Shown: piece by piece, positions 4,144-52,594 of the stretch
How positions within the stretch are numbered: the first letter of the stretch is position 1
Layout: each line of letters starts with the position of its first letter
Assembly: GCF_937616625.2 (NCBI RefSeq)
Contig: NC_065571.1
Location: forward strand, 10,108,501-10,172,500
DNA: 64,000 bases
Source of the DNA: Mercurialis annua
Taxonomy: Eukaryota > Streptophyta > Magnoliopsida > Malpighiales > Euphorbiaceae
Direction of reading: 5' to 3'
The notes under the pieces: generated by a model
Seen by the model: the letters and a program-made list of their open reading frames with translations, nothing else
Told to the model about the DNA's origin: nothing
Databases searched by the model: none
Program-made: the position numbers and the translations under genes

Positions 4144-4198
4144 TTACTCAGTGTCATGAAAATTTTGTTTACTATCTTATCACTTCTTAATATTTTAA

Positions 4199-5029: not shown

Positions 5030-5102
5030 TTATTTTAATTACTTAAAACTCAATAGACATGTGTAATTCTTCAAGAAAAAGAAATAGACATATGTAAACT
5101 AA

Positions 5103-10820: not shown

Positions 10821-13301
10821 CTATTCTTCCTTCTTTTCGGTCTTGTTTTCTTGGAGATCCACCACTGATTCATCATAGCACTTCTTGGCTATTCCTTGGT
10901 CTCCTCTCAGCGTCACTACTCCCTTTTCAGTCGGTACCTTCATTGCCAGTGCTCTGATGCTGGTTACCGCTGCCGAGTCATGGAGGAAAGGTCTTCCTAG
11001 GATGGCATTATATGTCAATTCCATGTCCACTATGTTAAATAGTGACATGATTTTCTTGTTCATTCCTCTTTCTGGGCCGATTATTACTTCCAAGGTGACT
11101 GCTCCCAGCGGGGTGATGGAGGGTCCACCGAGTCCTGATAGCGGAATTGGGACTCGGCGTAACCTTGACGCTGTTCCTCCCAACATTTTGTATGCTGCAT
11201 TCGTCATGAGGTTTACTGCACTTCCTTCGTCGATAAGGATCCGTTCCATGTTCCAATTTTCAATGATAGTAGTCACTACCAAAGCATCGTTGTGAGGTGC
11301 TTTGACGTGTTCATAGTCTTCTACATCGAAGATCACTGGCGGCATGTGAGTTTCTCGTATGTTCATTACTTCCTTCCTTTGCTTCCTCCTGATCGTGGAG
11401 CTACTATGCCCTCCACCATTAATCATGTGTATGGTTCCCAGAATTTTGGATGGGCGCTCGTCTTCCTTTTCTTTTGGCTTGTCTTCTCTGTTTCTTTTTT
11501 CTCCCTTGTCATTGCTCTTCTCTTTTCGGGCCACAAATTTCCTCAGTTCGCCTGTGTCGATCATTCTTTCGATTTCGACCTTTAAGTCTCTGCAGCTATC
11601 CGTTTCGTGTCCGTAATCGTCGTGAAATTTGCAGTACTTTCTGGTGTCTCTTGCTTCTGCTTTCATTTTGGGTGGCCATACCACGTTTTTGATGTTTTCT
11701 TTGATCCACATGAGGACATTAGTTCGGCTGGTGTTTAATGGAGTGAAGTTATTCTCGTCATCTCTGGGATCGTATCTCGATTCATATCTTGTCTGGGGGG
11801 CGAATCGTCTGCTTTCTTCGGGTCTTCCTCTTCTGTCATCAGGTTTGGACTTGGTTTTTTCTCTGGATCTCTCTTTTGATTCTTTTCCTTTTGCTTCCTT
11901 TCCGCGAATCGCCCTTCGCCCTTCGTCTAACTCGAAGTATTTCTGAGCTATGCCCATTAAGTTTGAGAAAGTTGTGGGTTTATTGACTAGCAGCTTGTCC
12001 ACCAGCTTTCCGAATCGCGTCCCGTCTCGCAATGCTTCTGTCGCCATGTCGACGTTCAGGTTGTCTATCTTCATAGCTTGCTTGTTGAATCGTTCGATGT
12101 AGCTTCGCAGGGTTTCTCCTTCTTCTTGGATACAGGCTCTTAGGATACTGGTAGTGGTTTTAGCTGGGATGTTTGTGAGATATCTGTTGAGGAATTCTGT
12201 TGAAAGCGAAGCGAAGCTTTTGATCGAGCCTGGTTTTAATTTGTTATACCATCTCTGGGCTGTGCCCGTGAGCGTGGTAGGGAAAACCCTGCAGAGGATG
12301 GCGTCTGATACGCTGAGTAGCCCCATGGTCGCTGTGAACCTAGAGGTATGGTCTCGGGGGTCTCCTTCCCCATTGAAAATTGGCAAAGTCGGCAGCTTCA
12401 TGCTGTACGGGATGGTTTCCTCCATGATCTCGGGCGAGAGGGGTGATCCTTTCAGCCTGAGGTCCTCTATATCCAATTCTTCAGATTTTAGTTTTTTGAG
12501 CGCTTTGGCGATCTTCTCTTCTAGATCTTCTTCCACCACATATGTGGCTTTGCTTTTTTGGGGTGTCTCTGACGATTCGCCCTCTCCTTCTTGGTGTTTT
12601 TTCTTATTTTGTTCTTTCCCTGCATCTCTTTCTTGTCGCTTACTCCTTGGTGGGGCATCTTCTTTTTCCTTCTCCCTTCGTTCGTCTCGTTTCGTATTCA
12701 GACCGCTTCGGGCGTCCTCCTGGTTGTGCTCATTTCTGGGTGCCTCTGGTGATTCCTCGTTAGATTTTTCTCTGTCAGGACTTTCCTCTTCGCTGGTTTC
12801 CTTTTCTCGTTGGTTTCGTGCTTCGTTCCTCTCTTCGTTTCCTCTGGTCCGAGGTTCCTTGCTTTTGTTGTTTTCTGCCCTTGTCTCCCGTCGGCCTGGG
12901 TTTGCATCTCTTGTTCTTTCTCTTCTTCTGGGAGCTGTAGGGCTGAAGTTTTCCCTTAGCATTCTCATAGTTTCTTCGTGCCTGTCGTTTGTTCTTTTGG
13001 CCTCATTAGCCAATCTGTCAAGATTTGCCTGCACAGATTCTAGTATCTTTTTCAGCATTTCGCTGTGTGGATCTTGTGTCGCTGCATTTGGTGCTTGTTC
13101 TTCAGTGCTTAGGTTGAAAGCAATTGGGATGCTTCCTCTTATTGGATTAGTTTGGTACTGGGGTGTTGAGAAAGAGAGCCCTCCGGTGTTGCTTTTTTCC
13201 CCGGAGTTGAGAAGCCCATCTTCCGTCACGTTGATTATCTCCGGAGTGTTTTTTGGGTCCATTGGTTGTTTGTCTTTCAGGTTTACTCTTTCAGAAGTCA
13301 T
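10821..13301 (-). CDS. Gypsy-type retrotransposon Gag polyprotein with protease-like C-terminus (826 aa)
   Basis: A single uninterrupted ORF. The start was chosen at ATG 13299-13301, because a stop codon lies in frame about 30 bp upstream and the three codons before the ATG only allow a TTG start. Roughly the first 300 residues are highly charged (Arg/Glu/Lys-rich, low complexity). Next comes a plant Gypsy gag core with the motifs GDPRDH, QRWYNKL and YIERFNKQ. A zinc-finger-like segment follows, with Cys, His and Cys spaced as in the Tat/Ogre-type CKFH..YGH.T..C motif. The C-terminal part has an aspartic-protease-like block: IDEGSAVNLM, the usual D-T/S-G-S site with Glu in second place, then AILGRPFLH. 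The frame ends before any reverse transcriptase. An intact frame in an element lacking pol suggests recent insertion or mobilisation in trans; that is inference. Confidence 0.85.
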   Translation of the reverse strand: MTSERVNLKDKQPMDPKNTPEIINVTEDGLLNSGEKSNTGGLSFSTPQYQTNPIRGSIPIAFNLSTEEQAPNAATQDPHSEMLKKILESVQANLDRLANEAKRTNDRHEETMRMLRENFSPTAPRRRERTRDANPGRRETRAENNKSKEPRTRGNEERNEARNQREKETSEEESPDREKSNEESPEAPRNEHNQEDARSGLNTKRDERREKEKEDAPPRSKRQERDAGKEQNKKKHQEGEGESSETPQKSKATYVVEEDLEEKIAKALKKLKSEELDIEDLRLKGSPLSPEIMEETIPYSMKLPTLPIFNGEGDPRDHTSRFTATMGLLSVSDAILCRVFPTTLTGTAQRWYNKLKPGSIKSFASLSTEFLNRYLTNIPAKTTTSILRACIQEEGETLRSYIERFNKQAMKIDNLNVDMATEALRDGTRFGKLVDKLLVNKPTTFSNLMGIAQKYFELDEGRRAIRGKEAKGKESKERSREKTKSKPDDRRGRPEESRRFAPQTRYESRYDPRDDENNFTPLNTSRTNVLMWIKENIKNVVWPPKMKAEARDTRKYCKFHDDYGHETDSCRDLKVEIERMIDTGELRKFVARKEKSNDKGEKRNREDKPKEKEDERPSKILGTIHMINGGGHSSSTIRRKQRKEVMNIRETHMPPVIFDVEDYEHVKAPHNDALVVTTIIENWNMERILIDEGSAVNLMTNAAYKMLGGTASRLRRVPIPLSGLGGPSITPLGAVTLEVIIGPERGMNKKIMSLFNIVDMELTYNAILGRPFLHDSAAVTSIRALAMKVPTEKGVVTLRGDQGIAKKCYDESVVDLQENKTEKKEE

Positions 13302-19891: not shown

Positions 19892-22800
19892 GAGGAAATT
19901 AGGCCCAGCACCACCTAAAGCCTAAATATTCTCACTTATACATACCAATATCTTTCCTTGCTAAAATACGATTCAAACCGATTTCCTTTTATTTTTGATC
20001 TTTTGTCTTTTGTTTTTTACTCTAAAATAACATCATAAATACATTGGACTATCTCCCTACCGGAGTCGACCATCTCTCCATCACTGTCCTCCTAATAAAA
20101 TTGCAGACAAGAATAACCGGAGCCATTGATCATCCTCTCATCACCCTGTCTCCAATTTATAAACTCATCGACTCGAGAGTACTCAGAATTCATGGGTTTG
20201 AATCATATTGAGAAAAATAAAACCTTCGGAGCTGATCGATTCTCGAAACGATGATGCATCACTAGCTGGGTTTGTTCTCGTTATGTGTTGTACGCCTTTA
20301 ATGGATCATGTGGTTGATGAATTTTGAGTTCCGTCCTATGTGTTCTACACTTCTGACGTTTTATTTGTGAACCGATATTAAATCAAAAAAACTGATTAAA
20401 GTTTTTGTAATTTATAAAATAAATTGAAAAATATTAAAAAACTTCATCAATTCCACATTATGTTGATTATTCTGATTTAATGTTTTGTTAGTTTTGATTT
20501 GCTTAGTGTAGGTGGTTGTAGAGTTTTCAATGATGCACATGTTATGTTTGATAAAACTACTCAATGATAATAGAAATTGTTTATGCACTTCCTATAACTT
20601 CTTTGGAATTCTTGGCAAGGCCTGTAAAACTGGTGAATATTCTATTCAGAAGATCAAGACTAGCTTTCCCAAACCTTGATTCATCATTTTTATAGATTGT
20701 CCAGTGTGTCTTTAAGATTACTTTTAATAAATGTTTGAATTCAATAAATCAGGTGAAGTTTGTCCATTGATGGATGAATAAGATTTGTTAGTATCCATTG
20801 GAAAATGAAGTAATATTTTCTTGTATATGTATTTGCTATGCTAATCAGCATATATTTTCCTCTTTTTTTTGAAAAAAGTACGTATTAGTTAAAGATAAAA
20901 TGATCAGTTGCGCCCCTCAACTTCACACAAAATATCAAAACCTCATTTTTTTATGTCTTTTAGATAAAAAAAAAAGAGGGGTTTAAATTCACCAAAAATC
21001 ACCAAATTTTATATGTTTTCGGTTTTAACATGATTTTTTAATTTTCACCAAAAATCACCAACTTTTATTTTTGCTATGCTAATCAGCATATGTTTTCAAA
21101 TTTTTTTGCAACTAAGACCACGTGTGTTTTTATATTGTTCTACAAGTTATATCGTGTTATATTTATATTGATATTATCAATTTTAATAATAATTAGATTA
21201 GAATTAGATTTCAATTCAAATGATGGCTCAATATAAAAGAATTTTATATTTGATGGGGGATTATTGAATTTTAATTTTCGATAACACACCCTTAGTTAAC
21301 TATTAGTAAACCAATTGTAAAATAGTAATGGACTTTCCTTTTGTATGCCGATAGCAGACTGATAGTTAACTATTAGTAAACTGATAGTTATCTATCAGTA
21401 ACCCGATTGCAAACTAGTAATGATTTTTTTTTGTATATTGATAGTAAATTGATAGTTGACTATTAGTAAACTATTAGTATACCAATAATAACTATTACTA
21501 AACCAATTGTAAAAAAATAATGATTTTTTTATATGTCGGTAGTAAATCGATAGTTGACTATTAGTAAACTGTTAAAAAATAGATAGTTGATTATTAGAAA
21601 ACAAATAGTTGAATATTAGTAAATTTATTTATATTTTAAAGTGGTTTTATATCGTTAACTATGTGTTAGCTAAGAGTTCCTTTTCCATTCATTAGTTTCA
21701 TTACTGATGCTTTTGTCACTAACCATATTTAGTTAACCATATTGAGTTTTTGATTTGTAATTTTTATAACCAATTTTTGTCGTTTGTTAACCAATGGTTA
21801 ACTAATGGTTAACTAATAATTTTGGATTTTAAAAAAGACGATTTAGGTTTTGTTTGACAGTTGCTGTTGCGGTGGTGAAGACGAAGGGTTTATAATAAAA
21901 TTTTGTAATTATTTTTTTTTGTTGGTTAACCAATGGTTTACTAATGGTACACCAATAATTTTGTTTGTAATACACTGTTAGTAAGCGTTAGGTTAACCGT
22001 TGGAAACTTGTAATAATTTTTATAATGATTATATGGTTAATAAATTGTTGGTAAACTTGAATTTTGTATTTTAAACATAATAAATTTATTTTTAGTACAT
22101 CGTTAGTTAACCGTGAGTAAACCATCGATAAATTTATAGTTAATTTCCATCTTTTAAGAAATTAATACAAATTATGTGATAGTACACCGTTAGTTAACCG
22201 TGAGTAAACTGTCGATAAATTTATAGTTAATTTCCAAAATATTATTTCCATCTTATAAGAAAAATAGCTAGCAAAATCGCAATCGTAAAGAACAAACAAA
22301 TATAGTAAATTGATAGTAGACCAATAGTTAACTACCTATTAGTTAACTGACAGTAGACCGTTAATAAATTGATAGTAGACCACTAGTTAACTACTTATTA
22401 GTTAACTGATAGTAGACCGTAAGTTAACTACTCGTTAGTAAACTAAAAGATAAACTAATTTTGTATATATTTATAACACTGATAGTAAATCAATAGTAAA
22501 TTTATCTTTTAATAAATTGATAATAAAAGTTGTATCTTTTTATATATTGATAGAAACCGATAGTTCACTATTGGTAAACTCTGAATTCTTGATACAAGAT
22601 TACATAATTCTTAATAATTATACAAAATATACAACTTCATGAGCATCTCTAACATTACAGAAGATTAACACAACAATTGACTTGATATTTGGAGAAAAAC
22701 TAAAAACTACATCTCCAGCTAGTGTGAATTATATTGGGTGAAACAACACTGATCATTTCCAATTTTAACTATATAACCTGAATCTTGCTTATATTAACCT

Positions 22801-25103: not shown

Positions 25104-25634
25104 GTCGGTTGGCTGTGCTATCGATGTCAGGATTGTGTGTTACATCGGTTGGCTGTGCTATCGATGTCAGGATTGTGTGTGTTACATCGGTTGGCTGTGC
25201 TATCGATGTCAGGATTGTGTGTGTATGTTAGATCGGTTGGTTGTGCTATCGGTCTCAGGTGAATATGGTTGATCGGTTGGCTGTGCTATCGGTCCCATAA
25301 TATTGTGTGTGTGTGTGTGTTAGATCGGTTGGCTGTGCTATCGGTCTCAGGATTGTGTGTTACATCGGTTGGCTGTGCTATCGATGTCAGGATTGTGTGT
25401 GTGTGTGTTACATCGGTTGGCTGTGCTATCGATGTCAGGATTGTGTGTGTATGTTAGATCGGTTGGCTGTGCTATCGGTCTCAGGTGAATATGGTTGATC
25501 GGTTGGCTGTGCTATCGGTCCCATAATATTGTGTGTGTGTGTGTTAGATCGGTTGGCTGTGCTATCGGTCTCAGGTAAATATGGTTGATCGGTTAGCTAT
25601 GCTATCGACCCCATAGTAATATGTGTGTATATTA
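25104..25634 (+). repeat. Tandem array, 12 units of about 40-52 bp, with pairing arms
   Basis: Each unit holds the core CGGTTGGCTGTGCTATCG followed by a variable tail with (GT)n. Three unit types alternate in a higher-order pattern. Type 1 has arms ACATCG/CGATGT, type 2 AGATCG/CGGTCT, and type 3 GATCG/CGGTC plus ATGG/CCAT. The arms therefore change together. The array lies within an LTR fragment. The ORF-like frames through it are just translations of the repeat. Confidence 0.85.
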
Positions 25635-28035: not shown

Positions 28036-28668
28036 ATGCCGGATTCCGGCGGCGGTTGCTGCAGATGCTGCTGCAGCTTCATATTTACACTAGGTTTAAC
28101 AGCTTTATTCCTATGGCTAAGTCTACGAGTTTCAAAACCCAAATGTTCACTTCATAAATTCTACATTCCAGCTCTAAATCACTCATTAAATCCAAGAGGT
28201 AACACTTCACTGATCTTCCAACTCCGGCTAGAAAACACAAACAAAGACAAAGGTGTATATTATGACCCAGTTAATGTCACATTCTTTGACAATCCTACAA
28301 GAAATCATTCAATAGGAAATTTTACTATTACTAAGTTTCATCAAGGGCATAAGAAGAAAGCAACAAAGGGTGGTGAAATTAGTCTTAATTCGAGTTCCGG
28401 GTTCGATCAAGAAGCGGTTTTCAGGGCGGTTTCGAATGGGTCAGCGGTTTTCCGGGTGGATATGGTTACTTCTGTTAAATACAAGATCATGTTTTGGAAA
28501 ACTAAGAGGTATAAGATAATTGTGGGTGCTGATGTTAATATTACTACTCAAGGTAGTATAAGTGATCCTAAGAAAGGTGTTAGGCTTAAATCTGATGCTG
28601 CTAAATTTGGGAAATTAGGGATTTTTTGGGTTGGGTTTTTGTTTTTTGTTTTGATTAATTTGTTGTGA
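28036..28668 (+). CDS. NDR1: NDR1, plasma-membrane immune signalling protein (210 aa)
   Basis: NDR1 (Non-race-specific Disease Resistance 1) is needed by many CC-type NLR receptors, binds RIN4, and links plasma membrane and cell wall. The gene is intronless, as NDR1 is. The start is the ATG at 28036, giving MPDSGGGCCRCCC. Residues 8-13 are a Cys cluster, 15-31 a membrane segment (FIFTLGLTALFLWLSL), and 35-50 the KPKCS...IPALN block. The LEA_2-type domain follows, with NKDKGVYYD (69-77), FHQGHKKKA (101-109), NGSAVFR (134-140) and FWKTKRY (153-159), all near-identical to Arabidopsis NDR1 as remembered. Several N-glycosylation sequons (residues 56, 80, 95, 134, 168) and a hydrophobic C-terminus (194-210), the GPI-anchor-like signal of the family, are present. 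Arabidopsis NDR1 is 219 aa. The frame is intact. A hairpin-rich transposon lies 87 bp behind the stop and could affect transcript ends. Confidence 0.95.
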   Translation: MPDSGGGCCRCCCSFIFTLGLTALFLWLSLRVSKPKCSLHKFYIPALNHSLNPRGNTSLIFQLRLENTNKDKGVYYDPVNVTFFDNPTRNHSIGNFTITKFHQGHKKKATKGGEISLNSSSGFDQEAVFRAVSNGSAVFRVDMVTSVKYKIMFWKTKRYKIIVGADVNITTQGSISDPKKGVRLKSDAAKFGKLGIFWVGFLFFVLINLL

Positions 28669-28766
28669 TTTATTATTATTTTATTTATTTATTTGGATTT
28701 GTTCTTTTGGAGTTATGATAATGTTGTTGGTTATTTAATTTTATGTGAATTTTTAGGGTTTTTGAC

Positions 28767-29135
28767 ATTTCTGTGTCTCATAGACACAGAAATTCTCGTT
28801 TTGTGCCTCCTAACACCAGCCCGCTATCTCAGATAGCGGGCTGCAATTTTTTAGCACCAGCCCGCCATATGAGATGGCGGGCTGGTGGCTAATTACGGTG
28901 ATTATATTAATCACCGTAATTAGCACCAGCCCGCCATCTCATATGGCGGGCTGGTGACTGATTCCCTGCAACAGCAGGGAATCATTTGACCGACCAGCTG
29001 GTCGGTTGACTGACCAGCTGGTCGGTCAAACGATTCCCTGCTGTTGCAGGGAATCATTTAAAGCAAAGCAGCCCGCCATCTCATATGGCGGGCTGCTTTG
29101 CTTTAAATAGGTGAGTGCTTCAGCACTCACCTATT
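28767..29135. repeat. Left hairpin series of the stack element (10 hairpins)
   Basis: Hairpins occupy 28767-28793, 28817-28843, 28855-28887, 28888-28924, 28924-28956, 28960-28983, 28987-29028, 29032-29055, 29056-29108 and 29106-29135. Stems are 10-24 bp and mostly perfect, with loops of 1-7 bases. Higher order: 28855-28956 is itself one palindrome (the third and fifth hairpins are reverse complements), and so is 28960-29055 (the hairpin with loop AACA mirrored by one with loop TGTT). Recurrent stem words are CAGCCCGCCAT and GATTCCCTGC. Confidence 0.9.
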
Positions 29136-29494
29136 CAAACGGAGAGAACAGAAATTTTAAAGAAGAAAAAAAAAATTAGAAGATAGAGAAAAAAAAATAG
29201 GGAATTGTAATTAAATTTTAGTGGTTATCTCGTTAAAAAAAAATTAGTAAATTTTAGTAGAGTTTGACGGAGTGATTTTTCCGGAATTGGTTGAAGCGAC
29301 GGAGTTTATTTTGTGGAGCTTATCGGATATTTTTCTGGAGCTACATATTATTTTTCGGTCTGCTATTTTACGAGGTCTACAAGAGGTTAGTCCGTAATTT
29401 ATTTTTAATTCATTTAGTTTTACTTTATTTTTGAAAATATTGAAATTAAAAAATGTTAGAGTTTATTATAGATTAGAAAATGTTAGAATTAGAT

Positions 29495-29649
29495 TAAATA
29501 AAATAGATCTAAGTGGTAGCGACGACAACAGCTCCGGCCCAGATCTCAGACCTTATCGGCCATTGACTCATACCCAGATGAGTCGGCGTCAGAACAGGGG
29601 TCGAAACTTGAGGACACTCTTACGGACCCCAGATAGAACAAACATGTAG
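29495..29649 (+). other. Exon-like GC-richer frame inside the stack element
   Basis: An open frame encoding a Ser/Asp then Arg-rich peptide (SGSDDNSSGPDLRPYRPL, then RRQNRGRNLR) ends with TAG at 29647-29649. It contrasts with the AT-rich surroundings and may be a captured gene or retroelement fragment. I recognise no family. The start and upstream exons are uncertain. Confidence 0.35.
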
Positions 29650-30200
29650 TTGTATTTTATAGCTTTTTTTTATTGTTGTCCACATATTTTTGATTATTTG
29701 ACTTATTTTAATTTCTTTGTATGGCTTTTTTATAATTATTTACAAAACAGTAAAAACACTTCATAACAATCAAAATCATAAACCCTAAATTTGTTAATCT
29801 ATTTTTAAAAAGTATTGCATAGCAATGTCGTGTTTTTTACTAAAAGCGTGAATTACTAAAATTTAACATATAATCAATTAATCAAATACTACATTATTAG
29901 GTAAATTTAACTATTAAAATCACTTAATTAAAATAGATCTAACTCAAAATAAATTGGATATTAATATAGTCCGCACCACCATCTACGACTTTCATTTTTA
30001 CTCGAACTTTATTCGACATTTGTAAGATCTTTAAAATTAATGTCAAACTTAACTTTTTAAATTTAGATTGGTTCAAACAATAATTACAAATGACAATATA
30101 TTTTATAAAATAACGCTCGGAAGTCTCCGAAAATAACTCGAAATTAGTTAGCGTAAATTACAATTCATTGATAAAATAAATTTTTTTTTTATAAAAAAAT

Positions 30201-30506
30201 AAACTGATTGGGCAATTATTGCCCAATCAGTTTCAAATGATTGGGGAGAGAGTAATTAACTCTCTCCCCAATCATTGGGGAGAGAGTAATTAACTCTCTC
30301 CCCAATCATTGGGGAGCACCAGCCCGCCATATGAGATGGCGGGCTGGTGCTAATTACGGTGATTATATTAATCACCGTAATTAGCTACCAGCCCGCCATC
30401 TCATATGGCGGGCTGGTGCTAAATTACAGCAGCCCGCTATCTGAGATAGCGGGCTGGTGTCAGGAGGCACAAAATGAGAATTTCTGTGTCTATGAGACAC
30501 AGAAAT
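30201..30506. repeat. Right hairpin series of the stack element (about 7-8 hairpins)
   Basis: Hairpins at 30201-30233, 30239-30273, 30273-30306 (a duplicate of the former), 30317-30349, 30349-30385, 30387-30417, 30430-30456 and 30480-30506. The outer five mirror the left arm. The inner ones (AAACTGATTGGGCAA and GATTGGGGAGAGAGTAATTA stems) are unique to this side. Confidence 0.9.
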
Positions 30507-30526
30507 GTCAAAAACCCGAATTTTTA

Positions 30527-31630
30527 GTTATACATATGGGTTATGAGTTTTTTTTTAACTAAATTGCATTTGTGTGAGAAGATTTTAATTGTCACTAAAT
30601 TATACTAAATGTGGTCCGTCATGAACTATTGAGGAGGATGATTCTCTCATTTTATACTAAATGTGGTTAAGCCTGTTTTTAATTTCTTAAATTTATAGCT
30701 GTTTAAAATTATGACAGAAAAAACTGAAAAAAATAAAAAAATAATTAAGATGATTTGGTATTATAATTAATAAATTTTATATAGTTAGCTAGAAAATAAC
30801 ACTAGCGGAAAGGAAATTTGTATGCCATCAAAAGAATTTCATGAGCTTTACGATTACAAATTGAATGTTAGAAATGATTGCCGTAGAAATAAAATAACAT
30901 GGGAAATCTTAGTGAAAATAAATACTATAAAAATGCTTACTATTTTTGAATTTTAGGCTTGTCTACTCCACTATGTAAATCAATTTGTGGACGGTTTAAA
31001 TAAATTTATCAGAATTATCAATTTTTTGTTTTAAAAGAAAAAAAATCAAATCGAATTGAAAAGATAAAGTTGGATTTGTTTTGATTTTAAACTTTGTTGG
31101 AATATAATAATAATTTTTAAAAATAAAATTAATATTAGAACTAAGAAATATGAAAACGAGTTGACATTAAATGGAGCCTTCTTCCTTGCAATTTCATCTC
31201 ATATTACAAGCTCTTACCTCCTATTCATAAAAGCAAACAGAAATATAAATATAATGTTGTGTGCAGGAAAATTCAATGCATTTTCTTTTCTTTTCCCCGC
31301 ACTGCAGTTATAGAAATATAAATATAATTATAAAAATAATATCTAAGGCATGTTTGAATCAATTTTAGTATATGATTCATTTTAAATTCATTTCATTTTT
31401 AAATACAAAATTATTTAAAAAATAAATTTTTATATTTAATTTTTCGAATTTTAAATATGAAAATAATATTAAATTAAGTGAAATAAATTGAATGTTATAT
31501 TTCGAGTATAAATATAAGTTTAAATTGTGAAAATTTATTTGAACCAAACACATATTTTATAAAAATTCGACTGAATTCTATAAAAATTATGAAATTTATT
31601 TGAACTAAACTGACCTTAGAATAAAAATTA
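30527..31630. other. AT-rich intergenic DNA
   Basis: No gene, RNA or element with clear ends was seen. Confidence 0.6.
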
Positions 31631-32021
31631 GGCTTAATTACTTAAAAAATCTCACCTTGTAATATTTTTTCGTTTATACCATGACCTATAAAAAAGTTCA
31701 TTTATACTCTTTTTTTGATTTTTTGTTTTCAACTCTACCCTAAAGCACTAAATTGAACTTTTTATATCTAGAAAAAATTTAAAATAATCCTTCCTTTCTT
31801 AACTTATTTGTATTTTTTCAAATAGAAAAAAGATGATATAACCCTTTTATTTAATTATTTTTAATATTTTCATCCTTTAATTAATTAAATTGTCAAAAAA
31901 TAAAATTTTGGGGTACAGTTGAAAACAAAAAATCAAAAAAAGGGTACAAATGAACTTTTTCCTAGATCAGTGTATAAACGAAAAATTGTTTTAAAGTGGG
32001 GTTTTTTTAAATAATTAGGCC
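31631..32021. mobile_element. Mutator-like MITE, family A copy 3 (391 bp)
   Basis: Termini GGCTTAATT...AATTAGGCC, with arms sharing TCGTTTATACC and GGGTACA(A/G) words with copies 1 and 2. Flanks TAAAAATTA (31622-31630) and GAAAAATTA (32022-32030) agree at 8 of 9 positions. It lacks the GC-rich core. Confidence 0.82.
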
Positions 32022-33464
32022 GAAAAATTACTATTTAATTGGAAATTTGTGATGTTTTTATTCATGTGGACAGTGGACCACATGTTGGAATTACGATCCA
32101 ATAATAATTCACATTTAGAAGAAAAAAATCTTAACAGAAATCATTTTATGGTTACCAAAATAGCATGAACCACATGAAGTTAAAAGCTAAAGGAGTCAAG
32201 CCATTTGACGTCAATTTGGAAAGTTCTCCCCAATAAATGACCAATCTCTGCTCGACTTATCAAGAAGCTCTAAGTTACAAACGCTAAACAATAAACTGTT
32301 AAAATTATAGGTTTAAATCCTTCCAAGCTCCTCTCTTCCCCATTAAATAAAAAATCATTTGCTCTTTTAATTTAGCACAAAAATGTTAAAAAAGTCTAAA
32401 ATTAAAAATAAGATCAAAAGTACTCTAAACTGGTCTAAATCGGTTCTGAAACTCCTCCTATACTAACGTGACATTTTTATTAGAGAATGAGATTCTAAAT
32501 TTTAAATAATTAACTCTAAAACATATATAATTAAGTTAATTTAATTAAACATGTAATCTTAATTAATCACTTAATCTAAATTTTAAACCAATAAACTCAT
32601 CGATTTTTTCTTTTCCTCCACCACCACTTGTCCCTCTTCCTCCACTTCCACCAACCATCGTCCAATACTCGCCAACCACTATCCCAAAGCTGGACGAACA
32701 ACTCGTCTTCGTTGAGAGACGAATCCATCTGAATTCGTCTCCAACGGAGACGATCTGTTCGTCTCTGTCATACGTAATAATTATTTTACACTAATCGTTT
32801 TTAATTATATTTTACATATAAATTTAATAATATTTATATTTAAATATATTATTATATTTTATTTATAAATTAATTTATTTTTTTAAAATTTAAATAATTA
32901 TTAATAATTGAAGTTAGAAATTCAATTTAACCTGGTTAAACCATAACCCTTTTGTGAAATCTGTTTAATCTCTGATCCGGTTGTTAAAATCATTATGCAG
33001 AAATATTATAAGGGTAGAGTAGGCTTAGTCCAAACTTATGTAGATGTTTTTAAACATAAACATAATTATTTTTAATGAAAGATTAAGCTCAAATCAAACT
33101 ATCTAGAGATCATAAATGAACTAGAGATTAAAATCTGAACTGAAATAAATTTATGGATCCACCAACTGTTGGTGTTGAAACTAAAATCCCCCGCAGGAAG
33201 TAAAGTATTAGAAGATAGTGATAGACACCAACAAACCCACTCTCAATGCCAAAGTGCCACCAACCAATGTTCTAAAACTATTGGAAATAGTCCAAACTTT
33301 GACTCATTTTCAAAAAATGGAGATCTATCTAACTTTTAGTCATTTATGGACTAAGTTTGGGAGTTATTCACAATAATTTTAGTTATAAGATGAAACAAAG
33401 AGTATTAATCATATTCATATATATATATATTACTGAAAAACTCTATTAATTGTAAATTTATAAA
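32022..33464. other. AT-rich intergenic DNA with a GC-richer island
   Basis: At 32600-32770 a CT-rich, coding-like island (CCTCCACCACCACTTG) runs into an inverted GAGACGAAT / ATTCGTCTC group. It resembles the GC-rich cores of the nearby TIR elements, but no terminal repeats were found around it. The remainder is featureless. Confidence 0.45.
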
Positions 33465-37149: not shown

Positions 37150-37636
37150 AGTGAAAATAGTATCGAAAAAATCTTAAATTTTGAAACATTTCAAAAAATG
37201 ACGTTATTGTGAGAGCAATTACTCATAGGAATTGAGTATGATTTTTTATTTTGATCAAAATTATTGAAATAAAAGAAGTAATTTCAGATTAAAACAGAAA
37301 TAGAACTATATAAAATAATTTTTTTATTCAATTTTTATTAATTATAATTTTAAAAATAATATCAATCTTATTTAAGTATACTTAATTTTCAAGCGTTTGA
37401 AGTATACAGATTAGGAGTTACTTGACCTAATTTAAGAGAGTTTAGGATCTAATTGACTTAAAAGGTTAAAAATAATTTATTAGGCCATGAAATACAAATT
37501 TAAAGATTCTTATTGATTAAAAAAATTAAAAATAACTTATGACCTTAAATTTAAAAATTTAATTGACTAAAAAATGATAAAAAAAACTAATTTGATTCCG
37601 AGATACAAATTGGTTGACCTTTTGTTATTTTTAAAA
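37150..37636. other. AT-rich intergenic DNA
   Basis: Short diverged direct repeats around TTTAAAGATT / AATTGACTAAAAA occur, but there is no gene or bounded element. Confidence 0.5.
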
Positions 37637-38018
37637 GGCATAATTACTTAAAAAAAATCCTACCTTAAACTTTTTTTTCGTCTATACCCTAATTTTATAA
37701 AAAAGTCACTTGTATCCAATTTTAGATTTTTAGATTTCATCTCTACCCAATACAAAAATATAAATGATAATTTAATAAATTAAAAGATAAAAAATTAAAA
37801 ACGATTAAATAAAAGATTATATCATACGTCTAATTAGTATTTACATATAAATTGAAGGATTATTTTAAACTTTTTTTTCAAGTGAAAAGAGACAATTTTA
37901 GTACTTTGGGTAAAAATGAAACCTAAAAATTTAAAATTAGGTACAAATAATTTTTTTTTACAAAGTCAGGTATAAACGGAAAAAAATTTAAGGTGGAGTT
38001 TTTTTAAGTAATTAAGCT
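37637..38018. mobile_element. Mutator-like MITE, family A copy 4 (382 bp)
   Basis: Left end GGCATAATT, right end AATTAAGCT, with inverted arms sharing TCGTCTATACC and GTACAAAT-type words with the other copies. The 9-mers TTTTTAAAA at 37628-37636 and 38019-38027 are identical. No GC-rich core. Confidence 0.8.
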
Positions 38019-38311
38019 TTTTTAAAATCAAAGGATATTTTGATCATTTCTCATATACCCGTACTAAATGGCAAAATTGTAAAGTGAAGAATGGAAGTGG
38101 GAAGCGCACATTAGGCTCCAATGGCCTCCAATAGTGAGGCTACCTATTATAATAGTACACCAACGAATCAATTCAATTAGTATTTTTTAGTAATCAGTTG
38201 CCACTTCCCATTTATTGACTGAATAGTGTTAGTTTTAAACTACCATATTCAAAACCCTCTCAATTCTTTGACCTTTTAATTTACCCACAACCCATTTCTT
38301 TTCTGCTTTTA

Positions 38312-43957: not shown

Positions 43958-44286
43958 GCCCGACTATTCTAACTAACATGATAAGACTACGCGTCTGGAT
44001 GAACTTCATTTGCAGAACTTCATAGCAGTTGATGTAGTTATTCTGGACAGAGGGAAATAGACAATGCATTCGGGTGGTACTAAAATTCCATTGCTGAGCA
44101 GTAATGCTGCGGCACCAGTCTATACAGTTTTGTTGTATTTGAAAATGCTGCCACTGAAATTTGCATTTTTCACTGGGAAGCTCATGTTTTTAATATGTAT
44201 GATTATGAGGTGTTTTAGGGGTGTTATGTATCATGGTCATATGATTAATTTATGCAAACCGATTGCTAATTTAATTATTATCTGTA
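43958..44286 (+). other. GONST1 3' UTR and flank
   Basis: Non-coding DNA between the stop codon and the first Helitron. Short frames here are chance. No clear polyadenylation signal could be fixed. Confidence 0.5.
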
Positions 44287-45294
44287 CTAGTCGTAAGTCC
44301 GCGTATTTACGCGGAATCAAATTAATATTTATTTAGATAATAAATTTAGTAGAAAATATATATATAGAAAAACATAAAAAAAAGAAAATCAGATACAAAC
44401 TAATAAAATTAAAATCTATTTTAATGTTAGTAATAAATTATTTGAAAGTATTGATTATATCTAATATTAACACTCTTTTATTAATAATTTTTATATTAGA
44501 TAAAAATCAAATAAATTATAGTATTTAATTATTAAAAGTTTAATAAATATTTGATATAAAATTTTAGCTTTTCAAAATTCTAGGTTAACTTATTTTTAAT
44601 GATAAATATTCAATAAAATAACTTGTAGAGATTAAAAGTTAATATATATTAGAACACCATGATGCATTAATACATATGCCGGTGTTTAAGAAATCAGCTA
44701 CAAATAATTAAAAATAGGGCGAAATAAAAAGAAAAAGAAGATAAATTTAATTTTATAGATTAATAAATTTACATCAATTACAAACTCAATAAGATAACAG
44801 AACTAAATTGAGTATTTTTGGAAAGGTGAAAACTTACACATACATCTTACCAAATTCAAAATGTTAATCAATCTATACAGCAATATATATAATTTATGTT
44901 CAACATGACTAAGATTAAATTTTAATATCACAATCTGCGAGTGGAAGTGGACGCTGGGTATAAGCCCCAAGACAACCATTCACTTGTTTAAGTGAATTAG
45001 AAATAATCAAATTGAAAAAGTTTAGAACAAATCGAGAGAAGTTTATAAAGTACAAATCAGAAATTGGGAGAAGTTCCTATACTAATAGGATTGGATGTCC
45101 CGGATGAATATAAATACTCTAAACGTAGTAATTCTAGAATAAAAAAGATAAATATTAAAGATAAATAGCTTAAAAAATCTCATTAAAAATAATAAAAATA
45201 AAATTAGTATTTTAATAAAAGTGGAAACTATGAGAATGCTCTATTTGGTAGAATCAATGAGAGGGCTCCGTTGGTCCTCTCAATTATATAAGTA
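44287..45294 (-). mobile_element. Helitron 1 of the array (1.0 kb)
   Basis: On the minus strand the 3' end is hairpin CCGCGTAAATACGCGG, then ACTTACGACTAG, followed by T, the Helitron CTRR end with its subterminal hairpin. The 5' side is ACTTATATAATTGAGAGGAC. No Rep/helicase coding region. It abuts Helitron 2. Confidence 0.8.
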
Positions 45295-47196
45295 CTAGTC
45301 GTAAACCCGCGCATTTGCGCGAAATCTGCTTGTATATAATTTTAGAAAAGCCGTACAACTAATGTTAACAAATTAATGTTTTATAATCTGTAAACAAATA
45401 AAATAAATAATAATCTTTCTAATAATTCTAGTAATTTTTTGTTTTAAAATATTAAATATTTATAGTATATTTTTTGTATTTTATATTTGTTAAGTTTTTC
45501 AGTTGAAACTATATTTTTATTTCTCCAATTTTTTTTTCCGTATCCCCACAAATTTTTCTGCAGTTATGTCTTGTAATGAAATATGGATCGGATACCTATA
45601 ATTTGCAACACTTCACAATATTCATCAACCGATGATATAATTGATGTTATTTTTCTATTATAAAATATGAGTTTGATAGGTGTAGAATTTTCATAATACT
45701 GAACGCAACTACTATATTTAATTTGTTTATTACTTAAATTGAAATAAGGTTAAGAAAAAGATAAGAAACAAACAAAGTTTGTAGTTCTTGTTCTACTACA
45801 TTATAGCAGGAAGTGGGAATTGGTTCATACTATTTTGCTTTAACTAAAACTCAACAAAACTTTATATGATAATTTAAGAGATAATAAGATAATTACCAGC
45901 AGGTAAAAGCATATTCAAAAGATACATACAATATACTTAAGAATTTACGTAAAAAAAGGATTAATTTCATAAAAAGTCACGACCTTTACACGAATTTTCA
46001 TTTTAATCACGACTTTTAAAAGTTGCCATATAAAATCACGACCTTTTATTTTTTTTCAAATCTATCACCAAATTATTTTTTGGTATATTTTTGATGACGT
46101 GGCCACCATAATCCGGCAGATTTGAAAAAAAATTGAAAGGTAAAATTCACCGGAAAAATAGTCGGTGATAGATTTAAAGAAAAATGAAAGGTCATGGTTT
46201 TATATGGCAATTTTTAAAAGTCGTGGTTAAAATAAAAATTCGTGAAAAGGTCGTGATTTTTTATGAATTAACCAAAAGAAAAACTTAAGAATTTAAAAAT
46301 AAATTATAAGATGAAACAATACACGTGTAATGTTCTTAACCCAAAAAAAAAAATTAGTTAAAGATTAAGGAACTTAGCATAGGTATATATGATATGATCA
46401 AATAGTTGATAAAGCACATGAATGAAATGATAAAAGATCAAAAAACTCAAGATCCGCAGCTATATAATCTCTCAATGACAATCATAAGTAAAATCTAACA
46501 CACTACAGAACTTGCCTTGAACCACCTTCTCGGCGTGATACGTTTTCATACCACATCTCATGCATGTCTGTTGCATCTATAGCAAGAACAAATCAATTTA
46601 TTAAAAATTAAATTTTTGTAAATGAATTAAAACAAAGAAGAAAAATCAATTAAATTGCATTTCAAGAGTTTGATTATATTTTATGGAAAAATCAATTAAA
46701 TTGCATTTCAAGAGTTTGATTAAATTTTATGGTATAAATGACTATTGCTTGTGATGAAATAATAATACCTCATACACTCAGTTTTCAAAGAGAAACACTA
46801 TCGACTGTAAATGAAAATAGAATATCAGATCATAAAAATAATTCATATGAAAAATTACAAAGATAATGCATTTACTCAACTGCTCAGATTGTATTAACAT
46901 ACAATAAATAGAGGTTTGTGTCCTATATAAACTATGGTTAAGTGGTTGATTGAAAAACAAATACTTCCAACGTAGTAATCTTAAATTAAAAAGGATAAAG
47001 TTTAAATAAATATTAACTTTTAAGATTAGCTTTAATTAAGATAAGTTAAAAAAATTGGAGACCTTATTTAGATTAAAAACTAATTAAATCAATTAAAATA
47101 AAATAAGTAGTGTAAAAAAATTGGAGACTACCAGAATACTCTATTTGGTGAGAATCAATGAGAGGCCTCTGTTGGTCCTCTCAATTATATAATATA
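45295..47196 (-). mobile_element. Helitron 2 of the array (1.9 kb)
   Basis: The 3' end has the hairpin CGCGCAAATGCGCG before GGTTTACGACTAG. The 5' side is TATATTATATAATTGAGAGG. Its 5' part (about 46577-47196) is closely similar to that of Helitron 4. It contains the nested MITE at 45958-46273. Confidence 0.78.
45958..46273. mobile_element. MITE, family D (316 bp), nested in Helitron 2
   Basis: The left arm GGATTAATTTCATAAAAAGT and the right arm (reverse complement GGTTAATTCATAAAAAATCA) are inverted repeats over about 90 bp with ACGACCTTT and TTAAAAGTTGCCATATAAAA words. The flanks are A-rich and a TSD cannot be judged. A related arm appears at the right edge of the window (63799 on). Confidence 0.7.
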
Positions 47197-49508
47197 CTAG
47201 CCGTAAACCCCGCGCAATTGCGCGAAATCAAATTTATTTTAAATTTAGATAATGATCTAAATAAAAAATTAGTAGTTTTTAAACTAATAAAGCAAAATAA
47301 AATATCAATATATCCTAATAATCCTATCAATGAATTATTTTAAAATATCGAATATTATGAAGTATGGACCAAGCATCATATTTTATAAATCTTATTATGT
47401 GGTATGGTCTTTTGCAATTAAAATAAGCATTTTTATTTTTTGCTCTTATATTTTAGTATCATACTATATGGGAAAACAGAATAAATAGGTGCTTCTTGAC
47501 CCTTGAAAGTAAATTGTACATTTTCTATCATATAGTGATGAGTATTAGATCGGTTTGATTAAAATAAATTCAAACTATTGCTACTCAATTATTTTAACTC
47601 TTTTTTTTGACTAACTGAATTAACTAAATTAAAGGAATACATATATCATAAAACTTAAAAGATTAAATAACAATCAACCCAATAAATAAGTTAATTCAAT
47701 GAAGCTGATAAAATTCGGGGTCCACCAATATAGCTTTAAAGTAGTATAATGAGAAATTTAGCATCAAGGTAAGCCGGATAATAATAGCTTATAAAAGCTT
47801 GTCATTTTGCTCAACCTAATTTTTGAGTTAATTAGAGGTTTGAGCCCTTATACAGTAATTCAAATAAAAATTCTGTTCAAAATTTTGAATTTTTCTGAGT
47901 ATTCCATCATTATATCTCTACAAATTGAATAAGATGATAACCACCACCTATTTTAACATAAAAAAAAACTACTTAATTACTCTGTTTCTATGTTAGTCCA
48001 GAAATTATTCACATTAGTCTAGTTCTAATGTTAATGTAGTTATTGTTTTTTTTTTTAAAAAAAAAACTAATCTAGTTGGAAAGTTGAGTAATTGATTTTG
48101 AGAGTTAGTGAACTTTTCAAAAATATAGAATGGATAATGAACTTTAAAACATAATAAAATAGTTACTAAATTTTTAAATTTGTGGTTCCAAAAGGTTTTT
48201 AAGTGATTTTCGATTATATTGTAATCAATTTCTGATTATTTATGATAAGTAATATTTGAAACTTTATATACACATAACCAACTAAAAATTGACTCAATTT
48301 TTTTTAATGACCAATAATTCTTTTTCTTAACATAAAATATAATTTAGCAACCACTTTGTCACGGTTTAGAAAATAAAATTCAGATAAAGTTGTCAAATTT
48401 TGAAACTAATACTATTATTTTGAAACGATCAAATAACTCTAAAAAAAATGGAGGTAAATTAGAACAATTTGTTACCTATCCCCCACAAAAGGGTGAATTT
48501 ACATGAGCAACAAATTCATCAAAACGTTAATTCATCAAATTATTCTAATTTCTTGATAATAAAATCAATCAATTAGTTGCAAACCGGATGCAATTTTTGA
48601 GGATCAATCTCACACTGTAGAATATTTGTTGCTATAATCTTCCTTTGCCTAGGTGCCCTATGAAAAGAAAGGACCAGATTGAAAAAACTAAAAAGATAAT
48701 AAAATAATTCAAAATCATATCGAAAGTATTAAAAAATTTAGAAAACATATTATTAAATCTTTGATAAAGTAGAGTGAAAAGATCATATTGTTAAAATTTG
48801 TCATATGACTCTCTTGATTGTACTTTGATCTTGTTTTAATGAATTCTAATTTTGAGGGGGAAAAAATCAATTGAAAATTAATTAATATAAAACAGAGCAC
48901 ATGATTTTTGTTTGACCTGATGTCTATGCATGATTTTTATCATCATAATCGCAACATATAATTCTTAAGAAACTCAAAAGGAAAAATGATTGCTAATACA
49001 GACCAAGAAATCACCAAACCTCTGAATAAGTAAATTAAACATTTAAGATAAACTATAATTGAGAATTTCCGTATAAGAGGACTCATGACCGACTATAACT
49101 TACAATTTACTATATCAAATGGACACATATAGCATTGAAAAAAGTTAGAGATCAAACCTGCTGAGAGAAATAAATTCATACCATCTTTAGATTATATATA
49201 ACTATTTTGCTAACCAAAATAATATCACCACACAAGCTATCGTGAAACAAAAGAATATTAGCAAATATTTTAGTTATGGATGATGGATGTTTTTTTAGTA
49301 GTTTATCACGATATATATGGATGTGAGATTTTGTTAATTGTAAAGAGGTCACTTAGAGATAAACAATATTTTAAATCAGTAGTTTAAAAAAAGTGGGAAC
49401 TGATGAATTTTTTTTATTTGGTGGGAATTAATAAGAAAAATTCATTTGGTGAGATTGAATGAGAGGGCTCCGTTGGTCCTCTCAATTATATAAGTATATA
49501 GATATAGA
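47197..49508 (-). mobile_element. Helitron 3 of the array (2.3 kb)
   Basis: The 3' end has the hairpin CGCGCAATTGCGCG before GGGGTTTACGGCTAG. The full 5' terminus TCTATATCTATATACTTATA (minus strand, from 49508) is kept, and the next element's CTAG starts at the very next base. Non-coding, with small AT-rich frames only. Confidence 0.78.
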
Positions 49509-51472
49509 CTAGTCGTAAACCCGCACATTTGTGCGGAATAAAATTATTATCTAAACTAAATATTGATTTTTAAAAAAAAATATGAAAAATTTATCAAAAA
49601 AAAAATATATATAAAAACATCAAAAAACTAAAAATTCATTATTTGTGAAATAAAAAAGAAACAAAAATAGAAACGTGTTCAAATATTTTAAGTAATAGAT
49701 TGTTTTAAAACTATTTAATATCTATAATATATCTTATACATGTTAAAATTTTGTAAATTTATTGTACCAGAATTGCATTTATTCAAATTGGCAAATTTTG
49801 GATTCAATTCTGATTACATTTTATTATAAAATTTTGTTTTTGATAATAGAATTTATAGAAACTTACAAATAACATTATTTAGAATTTGTATTCGAAATAT
49901 GGACATCGGTGTTGATTTATTTAATTTATGTATAAATATATGTGAATAAATGTATCAATTCAGAATTTAATGCAAATGTCAAAAAAACATCTCTAATTAT
50001 AATTAGACTGAAATTTAATAAATAAATAATTTTGCATAATCAATATTATATATGGATGTGTTTTTTTTAAGTTGGCAAAGTAATTAATCAACTATTAGTT
50101 TATATATCAGTCTTTGTTAATTTTAAAACTCTTTTAATATTAGTCTTTTGTTAAATTAAAAGACTTGCTTTACATCATTCTTTGTTCCTATCATAAACTA
50201 ACTGCTTTTTTTTATTCGTTCGGTATTCAAACATCAATTTGAAAAACAAAAAGATCTCATCTTAATTACAATTAGTTGCGGAAAAATTATAGAAAGTAAA
50301 TCAAACATCATCGAGAAAGGAAGGAAATGTGAAATTTTTTAAAAGTTTTCTTTTAAAAGTGCCGGCATTATACAAATTTATCTTATATATGTAAACGTGA
50401 CTCTCAGTACTTTGATAAGATTATAGTTGTATTTTCATGATAGTTGTTGAATTTGCTTTAGACATAAATACACATACATAAAGGGAAAAATATATTTATA
50501 TTATATTGTTATATTATCTAAAGACATTTGACAATGAATTCTATATCATGAAGAATTCTTTTTTTGATGAACATGTAGATTGATCACTCAAAAATATATA
50601 AAAAGATAAATCTATATTAATAGAAAAAAATATGATAAAATTTGAAAAAAATTAGATAACTACTTCATACAAATAAACTTTAGCTAATAAAAATTAAAAA
50701 TTCAATCAGTAACTTATATAAAATGTATAATAAAAAAAATTACAATTTCATGGGTGTAAGATACTAAAAAATTAAGAAAAAGAGAATTCACATGAAAATA
50801 CAAATCTTATAATGAACAAATAAACATTTTATTTTCAACAAATTCAGTTCTCGTTCATACCACATCCTCATTGCATATGTAGCAAGAACAAATCAATTTA
50901 TTAAAATTAATTTTTTATAACTGAATTAAAACAAAGAAAAAAAATCAATTATAATGGATTTCAATAGTTTGGTTATATTTAAGATATAAATGAATACTGC
51001 ATGTGATGAAATAATAATACCTCATATGTTACAACCCATAGAATGAGTTCAATTTTCAAAGAGAAAACCACCGCTGTCCTTTGCAAATAAAAATAGAATG
51101 ATGCATAGATCATAAAAATAATTCATACGAAGAATTACACAGCTAAAACACTAACGTAACTTTTCAGATTGTATTAACTCGCAAATAAATAGAAGTTTGT
51201 GTCCTATATAAACAATGGTTGAGTAGTTTATTGAAAAACGAATACCGGCAACGTAGTAATCTTTAACTAAAAATAATAAAATTTAAATAAATATTAGCTT
51301 TCAAGATTAGCTTTCAAGATAAGTTTAAAACGTTAGAGACTTTATTTAAATTAAAAACTGATTAAATTAATTAAAATAAAATAAGTAGTTTAAAAGAATT
51401 GGAGACTACCAGAGTACTCTATTTGGTGAGAATGAATGAGAGGGCTCCGTTGGTTCTCTCAATTATATAATA
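49509..51472 (-). mobile_element. Helitron 4 of the array (2.0 kb)
   Basis: The 3' hairpin is CCGCACAAATGTGCGG: both stem sides differ from the common CGCGC/GCGCG and still pair. The 5' side reads TATTATATAATTGAGAGAAC. The 5' half is similar to Helitron 2. No helicase. Confidence 0.8.
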
Positions 51473-52594
51473 CTAGTCGTAAATCCGCGCATTTGCGCGG
51501 AATTAAATTAATATTTATTTAAAATAATAGTTGTATTACAAAAATTAACAACAACAAATATTTTTTTTTTAGATTTTATAATTTGTATACTTTTTTTGAT
51601 TTCCTTGCAAATTCGTATTCAATTGTTTCTTGTAATGACCTGTGGATCGAGTACCATAATTTTTAGCACTTTATAATATTCATCAAATCCTCTTGCGTGA
51701 TATGATCTTTTTACATTTTTTAATAAAATTTATGCTCTTTTGTGATTATAAAATATGCGCTCGATTACCATAGTTGGATATTTATTTCTCGATGTTAAAA
51801 CTACTTTAAATTATAAAGTCTTTGTACTCTTTAGTATTTATAAATTTCAATAATAAACTTAGCATATTTATTTTTAACTATTTTATATTTTAGTATTACA
51901 TCATATTAGATATTTTTTAACATTGCTTATGAATTTATAAAAAAAAATCAAAATCAAAATATAATTAAAATTGCATTTTTTTTTCATTGTTATATAACAA
52001 TCATTATATCCAAAAAAATTCATAAAATATAAATTAAGCCTATAAGCACAAAAAAGACTTATTTGTTCAAATACCAAAAAGATCCAAATAAATAATTACC
52101 AAATATCAAGCATATGAACTGATAAATCATTCGAGTACCATTCTACTGTAAAAACATATAATCGTTAGAATTCTGATAAATAGTGCTGATACATATAATT
52201 TTAACATGAGGCCTACAATTTCTTAATTTGGATTTTACCAAATTATAAACTACACATATAAGTATATTTGCAGTTTCCACTTTCAGCAAAATAAATAATA
52301 TCACAAAACGAATATATGTTACATAAAATTTATAAATTCGTCATCAAAATCCATCACTCATGCATAACAAACATGCATCACAGGCATATAAAAAAGCTAA
52401 AAAACCTACCTTTTCCAATTGCCAGAGAACTCTTAAAATCTGTATTAATTTTTCCTTTAAAACACTCATAGCATTATTACTTCATAAAAATATTAGCAAA
52501 ACAAATCAAAACAAACAAATAACAAATAATTATAAATTATAGAAAATTATATGGTATAATTACAGAATCGTTATATCTGTAAGAACACATTATT

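Follow-up and report, generated by a model that had tools for sequence, protein, structure and literature searches.

A transposon whose inverted arms are chains of hairpins occupies 28756-30517 (1762 bp) of the Mercurialis annua window, the whole 64,000-nucleotide stretch of DNA that was analysed. Its sequence identifies it as a non-autonomous member of the Mutator-like elements (MULEs), and relatives elsewhere in the genome code for a transposase. In the reading that we consider quite likely, the copy arose by internal deletion of a longer parent, its arms are built and kept by template switching and turned over by slippage, and they persist as arrays of a short motif. To our knowledge, the origin of foldback arms and the upkeep of their symmetry are an old open question. 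Dozens of copies in this one genome record individual steps as both-sided stem changes, loop inversions and the gain and loss of modules, and template switching as the engine of transposon-arm evolution becomes directly testable in this family.

The element and its insertion site

The element is flanked by a 9-bp target-site duplication (TSD), GAATTTTTA, that matches perfectly between the two sides (Table 1), and its inverted ends, GGGTTTTTGACATTTCTGTGTCTC, are an exact match. The outer 201 bp form the TIR, in which the left and right copies are identical at 193 of 200 positions, with two compensating 1-nt gaps. The stop codon of an NDR1-like gene, whose best named relative is an NDR1-like protein of Ricinus (79% identity), lies 87 bp before the element start; an effect of the insertion on NDR1, for instance through structured RNA or small RNAs, is a possibility. 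The preliminary description of the window had already recognised a transposon with a perfect 9-bp duplication and mirror-image ends, 87 bp behind the NDR1 stop. This observation proved accurate to the base, the spacing was the same on recount, and its view of the element as a transposon is supported.

Table 1. Features of the hairpin-armed element and its flanks (window coordinates).
Feature	Position	Strand	Remarks
NDR1-like host gene	28036-28668	+	ORF; context, outside the element
Left TSD, GAATTTTTA	28747-28755	.	Identical to right copy
Shared TIR, left copy: 11-bp end and H1-H5	28756-28956	+	Alignable in 54 of 72 arms
H1: 12-bp stem, 3-nt loop	28767-28793	+	Both-sided changes at 14/36 and 16/34 in relatives
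H2: 13-bp stem, 1-nt loop	28817-28843	+	Loop C or G in 56 of 56 pattern matches, 80 arms
H3: core CAGCCCGCCAT, loop ATGAG	28855-28887	+	Most conserved hairpin
H4: 17-bp stem, loop TAT	28888-28924	+	ATA in right arm, read from the outer end
H5: inverted copy of H3, loop CTCAT	28924-28956	+	With H3 and H4, a single nested palindrome
Type-A subterminal hairpin z (GATTCCCTGC)	28959-28984	+	
Type-A double palindrome w w (CCAGCTGG)	28985-29030	+	
Second z hairpin, inverted	29032-29055	+	
Hairpin q: 24-bp stem around CAGCCCGCCAT core	29056-29108	+	
Hairpin t (GGTGAGTGC)	29106-29135	+	By eye
AT-rich core, 27% GC, no perfect 9-bp stems	29137-30200	.	Remnant of internal deletion
Internal deletion junction	29500-29508	.	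L026 match ends at element position 745, resumes at 753
Type-B subterminal hairpin n (GATTGGGC), 16-bp stem	30201-30233	+	
Type-B hairpin g (TTGGGGAGAGAG), 34-bp unit x 2.4 copies	30236-30316	+	
Shared TIR, right copy	30317-30517	-	H5 30317-30349, H4 30349-30385, H3 30387-30417, H2 30430-30456, H1 30480-30506
Right TSD, GAATTTTTA	30518-30526	.	Identical to left copy

Anatomy of the hairpin chain

The hairpins of the arms are perfect or nearly so. By eye, the left arm holds 11 of them and the right arm 8, a count of 19 that takes the overlapping 34-bp units at 30236-30310 as two; a greedy listing gives fewer because neighbouring hairpins overlap. Perfect stems of at least 9 bp cover 0.77 of the left arm, 0.75 of the right arm and 0.00 of the core. 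Stem coverage reaches at most 0.17 in other stretches of 381 bases (n = 1228, overlapping, step 50), and with 300 dinucleotide shuffles per arm it peaks at 0.058 and 0.063; chance or low-complexity hairpins are thereby ruled out. Folded as single-stranded DNA, the left arm has an energy of -188.6 kcal/mol against a shuffle mean of -50.2, and the right arm -150.1 against -36.7; these values lie 36 and 30 SD past the shuffles, and none of 100 shuffles reaches either. A Rfam gathering search of the whole window for known RNA families returned 0 matches.

The hairpins are also nested at a higher level. The stretch 28959-29056 matches its reverse complement with 94% identity, and 28855-28956 folds as a single long stem with a one-base bulge, its ungapped self-identity being 76%. 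Arms of consecutive palindromes, some of them palindromes of palindromes, had been described before, and both features are real; the earlier figure was about 17 hairpins, against the 19 counted here. Among 54 aligned arms, H3 is the most conserved, with a mean majority of 98.6% in the stem and 99.6% in the loop. The motif AGCCCGCYAT, contained in the H3 core, occurs in 4 to 8 copies on both strands within the outer 360 bases of 63 of the 72 arms, and such an array, together with the conservation of H3, is as expected of an array of binding sites.

A Mutator-like family with transposase-coding relatives

A search of the genome with the element's end, suggested in the preliminary description, yields 162 occurrences of the 22-base end at up to 3 mismatches, against 5 for the reversed control. 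With 401 bases of left arm and flank as the query, at least 128 matches are found, 40 of 130 candidates having been scored. Together with the window, 47 stretches held 83 ends, from which 37 pairs were formed and 9 ends stayed unpaired; a spurious 49-bp pair was dropped and 36 two-ended elements of 0.96 to 11.0 kb were kept, a non-random sample since the loci were picked for matching the window element. With the ends free to shift by up to 2 bases, the TSDs of these copies agree at 9/9 positions in 27, at 8/9 in 4 and at fewer in 5. One locus (L038, C55:31141107 and 31142017) has two left ends in the same orientation, 0.9 kb apart, and is possibly a nested or rearranged copy. The exact hairpin-core pattern gave 0 hits in viral contigs and 5 loci of one site each in bacterial and archaeal contigs, and an element-derived peptide query gave five candidates, none at E<=1.

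The MULE transposase domain PF10551 is found in the copy L034 (E 2.1e-15), and by tblastn the same region is also present in L026 (98%) and L030 (96%), the two longest gene-bearing copies with perfect TSDs. All three carry the SWIM domain PF04434; the MuDR DNA-binding domain PF03108 is weak in L026 and L030, below Pfam's cutoff. Similarity to the transposase extends to 12 of the 36 elements, in some as a fragment only. The family is Mutator-like because copies that share its ends contain MULE transposase domains; TSDs of about 9 bp, long TIRs of 201 bp and a DDE transposase in members with the same ends are all found here. Relatives with a transposase had been proposed as something to look for, and they exist; the companion statement that the element fits no standard family does not hold. 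A new transposon class is ruled out by the MULE domains, and the CACTA superfamily by ends of GGGTTTTTGACA and a 9-bp TSD as opposed to CACTA ends and a 3-bp TSD. Used as a query, the N-terminal part of the transposase shares words with 5126 candidate proteins; the 12 of these that reach E<=0.001 all belong to M. annua. One annotated M. annua gene model of 589 aa (P0126) matches this query at 48% with 90% coverage and has the domain PF10536; it is possibly a fused transposon gene model.

By comparison with these copies, the window element is an internal-deletion derivative of a parent type of 8.8-9.3 kb. Element positions 1-745 are 98.9% identical to L026, and positions 753-1762 are 91.4% identical to L026 and 96.2% to L027. 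With L026 as the nearest copy to its left half and a right half that resembles L027 more than L026, the element may be a mosaic. Both flanks of the junction within the core can be aligned to long copies from the family itself, and capture of a host gene fragment, as in Pack-MULEs, is not needed to account for it.

A Plant Mobile Domain (PMD) gene adjoins the transposase within the same terminal repeats in L026 (2654-4121) and L030 (5142-6599), and PMD similarity is seen in 6 of the 36 elements. The parent joins a MULE transposase to a gene with a domain tied to transposon silencing, in which Arabidopsis members act as described in PMC8616336. The main text of a MAIN/MAIL1 paper (PMC7156037) contains no mention of Mutator, MULE, MuDR or DNA transposon. 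An anti-silencing role for the gene in the parent is only a guess.

Module turnover between copies

Arms can be read as strings of modules by means of fuzzy patterns. The left-hand set ending in q and t is present in nine arms, as zwwzqt in five, zwzqt in three and zqt in one; at the opposite end, eight of these nine elements have the other set, of p and g type, and in the ninth only the outermost module is recognised. Since opposite ends carry opposite sets, the left set and the TTGGGGAGAGAG set represent the two subterminal regions of the 8.8-9.3-kb parent. They had first been taken for modules private to each side of this copy, which is mostly incorrect. One extra 34-bp g unit (30283-30316) is absent from the close relative L027, and a doubled g is confined to the window, being absent from the module strings of the other 35 elements. 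The window copy is set apart from its nearest relatives by this unit and two substitutions.

In the zqt arm, the sequence that separates two copies of GAATCATTT is missing, the footprint expected of slippage. The module strings differ between copies, and the idea that arms gain and lose hairpin modules is upheld both by the zwwzqt, zwzqt and zqt series and by the 34-bp unit. Foldback (FB) transposons likewise have long inverted arms of repeated modules in variable number, as found here. The modules do not follow the tandem arrangement of Tetris: the hairpins alternate in orientation, and the 34-bp g unit is the only tandem module in the window.

Both-sided stem changes and inverted loops

The shared TIR was compared in alignment A1, which holds 54 of the 72 arms; 18 were dropped for low identity or long indels reflecting large module differences. 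In A1, 97.2% of cells are paired when G-U, which is not a DNA pair, is counted as one. Both-sided changes affect 11 pairs and 75 cells, against shuffle means of 6.3 and 23.4 that none of 500 shuffles raises to either value, and against 3-7 pairs and 3-7 cells in slid controls; further pair types are not more numerous than in shuffles. On a tree, co-changes fall on 13 branches, eight of which swap one Watson-Crick pair for another and five of which do not, some of the latter at ambiguous ancestral states. Slid pairs give 1 to 7 co-changes with 0 or 1 Watson-Crick swaps, and when the same changes are placed at random, 2000 trials average 3.0 co-changes and never exceed 9.

Pair 140/162 is AT in 36 arms and TA in 13, with no A-A or T-T intermediate, and pair 141/161 is CG in 29 and GC in 21, with no C-C or G-G intermediate. 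Pairing is not strictly kept: 14 of the 54 arms have an A-A mismatch at pair 14/36, and the 126 reconstructed column changes are mostly one-sided. The consensus that RNAalifold derives by itself is partly different; it omits H5, has another structure in place of H1 and credits covariation with only -1.18 kcal/mol. Three of the 72 arms have no perfect hairpin of at least 10 bp in their outer 360 bases. The window's two arms differ at ten ungapped positions. Nine of these are outside stems, and the remaining one, position 132, is the outermost base of the left-arm H3 and falls outside the stem only if H3 has 13 bp, and inside if it has 14.

Two loops, those of H2 and H4, occur in exactly inverted forms. 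By pattern matching over 80 arms, which include 8 unpaired ones besides the 72, the H4 loop is TAT in 8 and ATA in 2, TCT in 10 and AGA in 1, and GCT in 10 and AGC in 4; ACT (2), ACC (3) and TTT (1) complete this set. A variant H4 stem carries the loop ACT (7 matches), and a wider pattern picks up AAACCT as well (9 matches). In H2 the single loop base is G in 43 arms, C in 13 and A or T in 0. The H1 loop has no inverted form in the 80 arms (CAT 41, GAA 5, GAT 3, TAT 1), and loop orientation is constant for H3 and H5 in the arms of A1. The window's own arms have TAT on one side and ATA on the other. Among 31 arms matched for H4 loop and stem, 25 fall into these loop classes, and the outer stem is homogenised in 4 of the 6 whose loop is inverted as opposed to 1 of the other 19 (Fisher 0.005, with arms treated as unrelated).

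Selection on structure, acting on extruded DNA hairpins or on transcribed RNA while point mutations are compensated one after another, would explain the both-sided changes and the share of paired cells, and it would also fit the greater conservation of the stems and of the H3 and H5 loops relative to the two spacers and the loops of H1 and H4. We nonetheless regard it as unlikely. The double transversion swaps at 140/162 and 141/161 lack the mismatched intermediates that stepwise compensation predicts, and exact loop inversions are not predicted by selection on pairing. Arms with the A-A mismatch at 14/36 exist, and two elements flanked by perfect TSDs, C54:14242202 and C3:70431749, have arms free of hairpins. 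As PMC8794818 points out for RNA genes, compensatory changes in hairpins need not imply that RNA structure is under selection.

A palindrome apparently under correction

The double palindrome at 28985-29030 reads GTCGGT twice in the window and GTCAGT twice in L026-L030. The window has G29004 and G29024, and all five relatives of the same layout have A at both sites; no other substitution separates the window's left arm from both L026 and L027. C28991 is the pairing partner of each new G, of the first in the inner fold and of the second in the outer fold. Among shorter versions of the palindrome, L031 and L032 have an imperfect C-A, L033 a perfect T-A and L060 a perfect C-G, and L035 has G at the second site in a rearranged layout. 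The family thus contains a half-corrected palindrome and, in further copies, each of the two states to which correction leads.

An alternative to self-templating within a hairpin is that gene conversion or recombination homogenises the arms, acting from copy to copy and from one end of an element to the other. The differing affinities of the left and right halves to L026 and L027 agree with such exchange, many modules are common to several copies, and a donor is possible for the second corrected site, where L035 and L060 have G in other layouts. Against it, the G/G state is found in none of the five relatives with the two-w layout (L026-L030 are all A/A), both Gs pair with the local C28991, and conversion between copies does not by itself account for a 3-nt loop that is inverted while its stem stays the same, as is seen when the window's two arms are compared. 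Overall, conversion is an improbable explanation. Either gene conversion or selection on structure would be expected to leave some of the same footprints as template switching.

Proposed template switching and the persistence of the arms

In yeast, template switching between short inverted repeats homogenises the arms and inverts the spacer (PMC8604942), and hairpins can be created and maintained by template switching as described in PMC8794818. Template switching is the most likely engine here because the arm homogenisation and loop inversion match the signature reported in PMC8604942. By comparison among copies, internal deletion of a parent of 8.8-9.3 kb carrying a MULE transposase and a PMD gene gave a non-autonomous copy, which inserted behind the NDR1-like gene with its 9-bp duplication. 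The footprints suggest that a strand folds back on a hairpin and the polymerase copies one side of the stem from the other. Such a switch would restore pairing and sometimes invert the loop, and a switch within flanking sequence would add an inverted copy. Inverted copies on both sides of a central hairpin, as in H3-H4-H5 and z-ww-z, are the footprint of fold-back copying of a hairpin with its flank. The junctions point to slippage between repeated stems, by which whole modules would be lost or duplicated. The arms probably persist because they array a putative transposase-binding motif in alternating orientation, for which CAGCCCGCYAT is the best candidate.

The arms might instead work as folded DNA, with the transposase or its PMD partner recognising extruded hairpins and with self-templated repair and loop flipping serving as upkeep of the recognition sites. 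We consider this distinctly unlikely; if true, recognition of folded DNA would let the family add or lose sites module by module. The suggestion that hairpins are small mobile modules inserted into the arms is very improbable: the 27-nt CAGCCCGCYAT core does stand in three flanking contexts (H2, H3/H5 and q), but none has a target duplication of its own in arms inspected by eye, and the flanks of H3/H5 and of q extend symmetrically, as fold-back copying predicts. Palindromes are generally hard to clone and to assemble, which would favour an assembly artefact. The chance of one is negligible, as the same modules occur in independent copies at other loci with clean TSDs and the published M. annua assembly was made from HiFi reads at 58-fold coverage (PMC11157195).

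Relation to known foldback elements

The element is a well-preserved variant of Mutator-like foldback elements, and its unusual part is how the arms evolve. The plant elements MuTAnT and FARE1 are likewise MULEs with long modular TIRs that form a foldback (PMC4486113). As described there, the founding MuTAnT has 292 bp with 144-bp TIRs of four similar segments and targets TA microsatellites; in contrast, 11 hairpins in a row make up the left arm in the window, the subterminal sets differ from end to end, and none of the 9-bp TSDs listed here is a TA repeat. The Tm1 Mutator/Foldback elements of root-knot nematodes share the 9-bp TSD, composite TIRs, a variable number of internal repeats and a rare transposase-coding copy, but are built on an internally redundant motif of ~14 bp and not on serial hairpins, according to PMC3169594. 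MULEs with multiple TIRs also show duplication inside the ends, for which replication slippage is proposed in PMC3310237, although there whole TIRs of at least 100 bp lie in tandem and are not palindromes.

Similar architectures are reported outside the MULEs. The soybean CACTA element Tgmt* has a subterminal motif in both orientations, 14 potential stem-loops and unequal ends, and differs in its superfamily, its CACTA ends and its 3-bp TSD (PMC2613891). The Drosophila foldback elements Tetris and Galileo have modular inverted arms of variable length (PMC4079207, PMC4168063); the arms of Tetris differ in being composed of ~220-bp tandem repeats, and one source given for defective copies of Galileo is template switching while gaps are being repaired. 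Among open-licence PMC titles and abstract openings, none was found that describes hairpin-chain arms of this kind.

Other features of the window

The window contains several further features. A 183-aa open frame at 748-1299 (+ strand) has a 2OG-Fe(II) oxygenase domain (PF03171), and an 826-aa open frame at 10821-13301 (- strand) has a retrotransposon gag domain (PF03732). A tandem array at 25105-25634 is composed of a basic unit of 40-46 bp and a higher-order unit of 226 bp, and related TTAGTAAACTG-type repeats, with a spacing that is partly 11 bp, lie at 8478-9222 and 21271-22447. A family of direct and inverted repeats of ~100-185 bp at 4192-5922, 31627-32028 and 37627-38028 is, as a guess, MITE-like. 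Six - strand copies of a repeat with GCGCGG, GTTTACGA and CTAG before T are spread over 44286-61080; we take them to be Helitron-like 3' ends.
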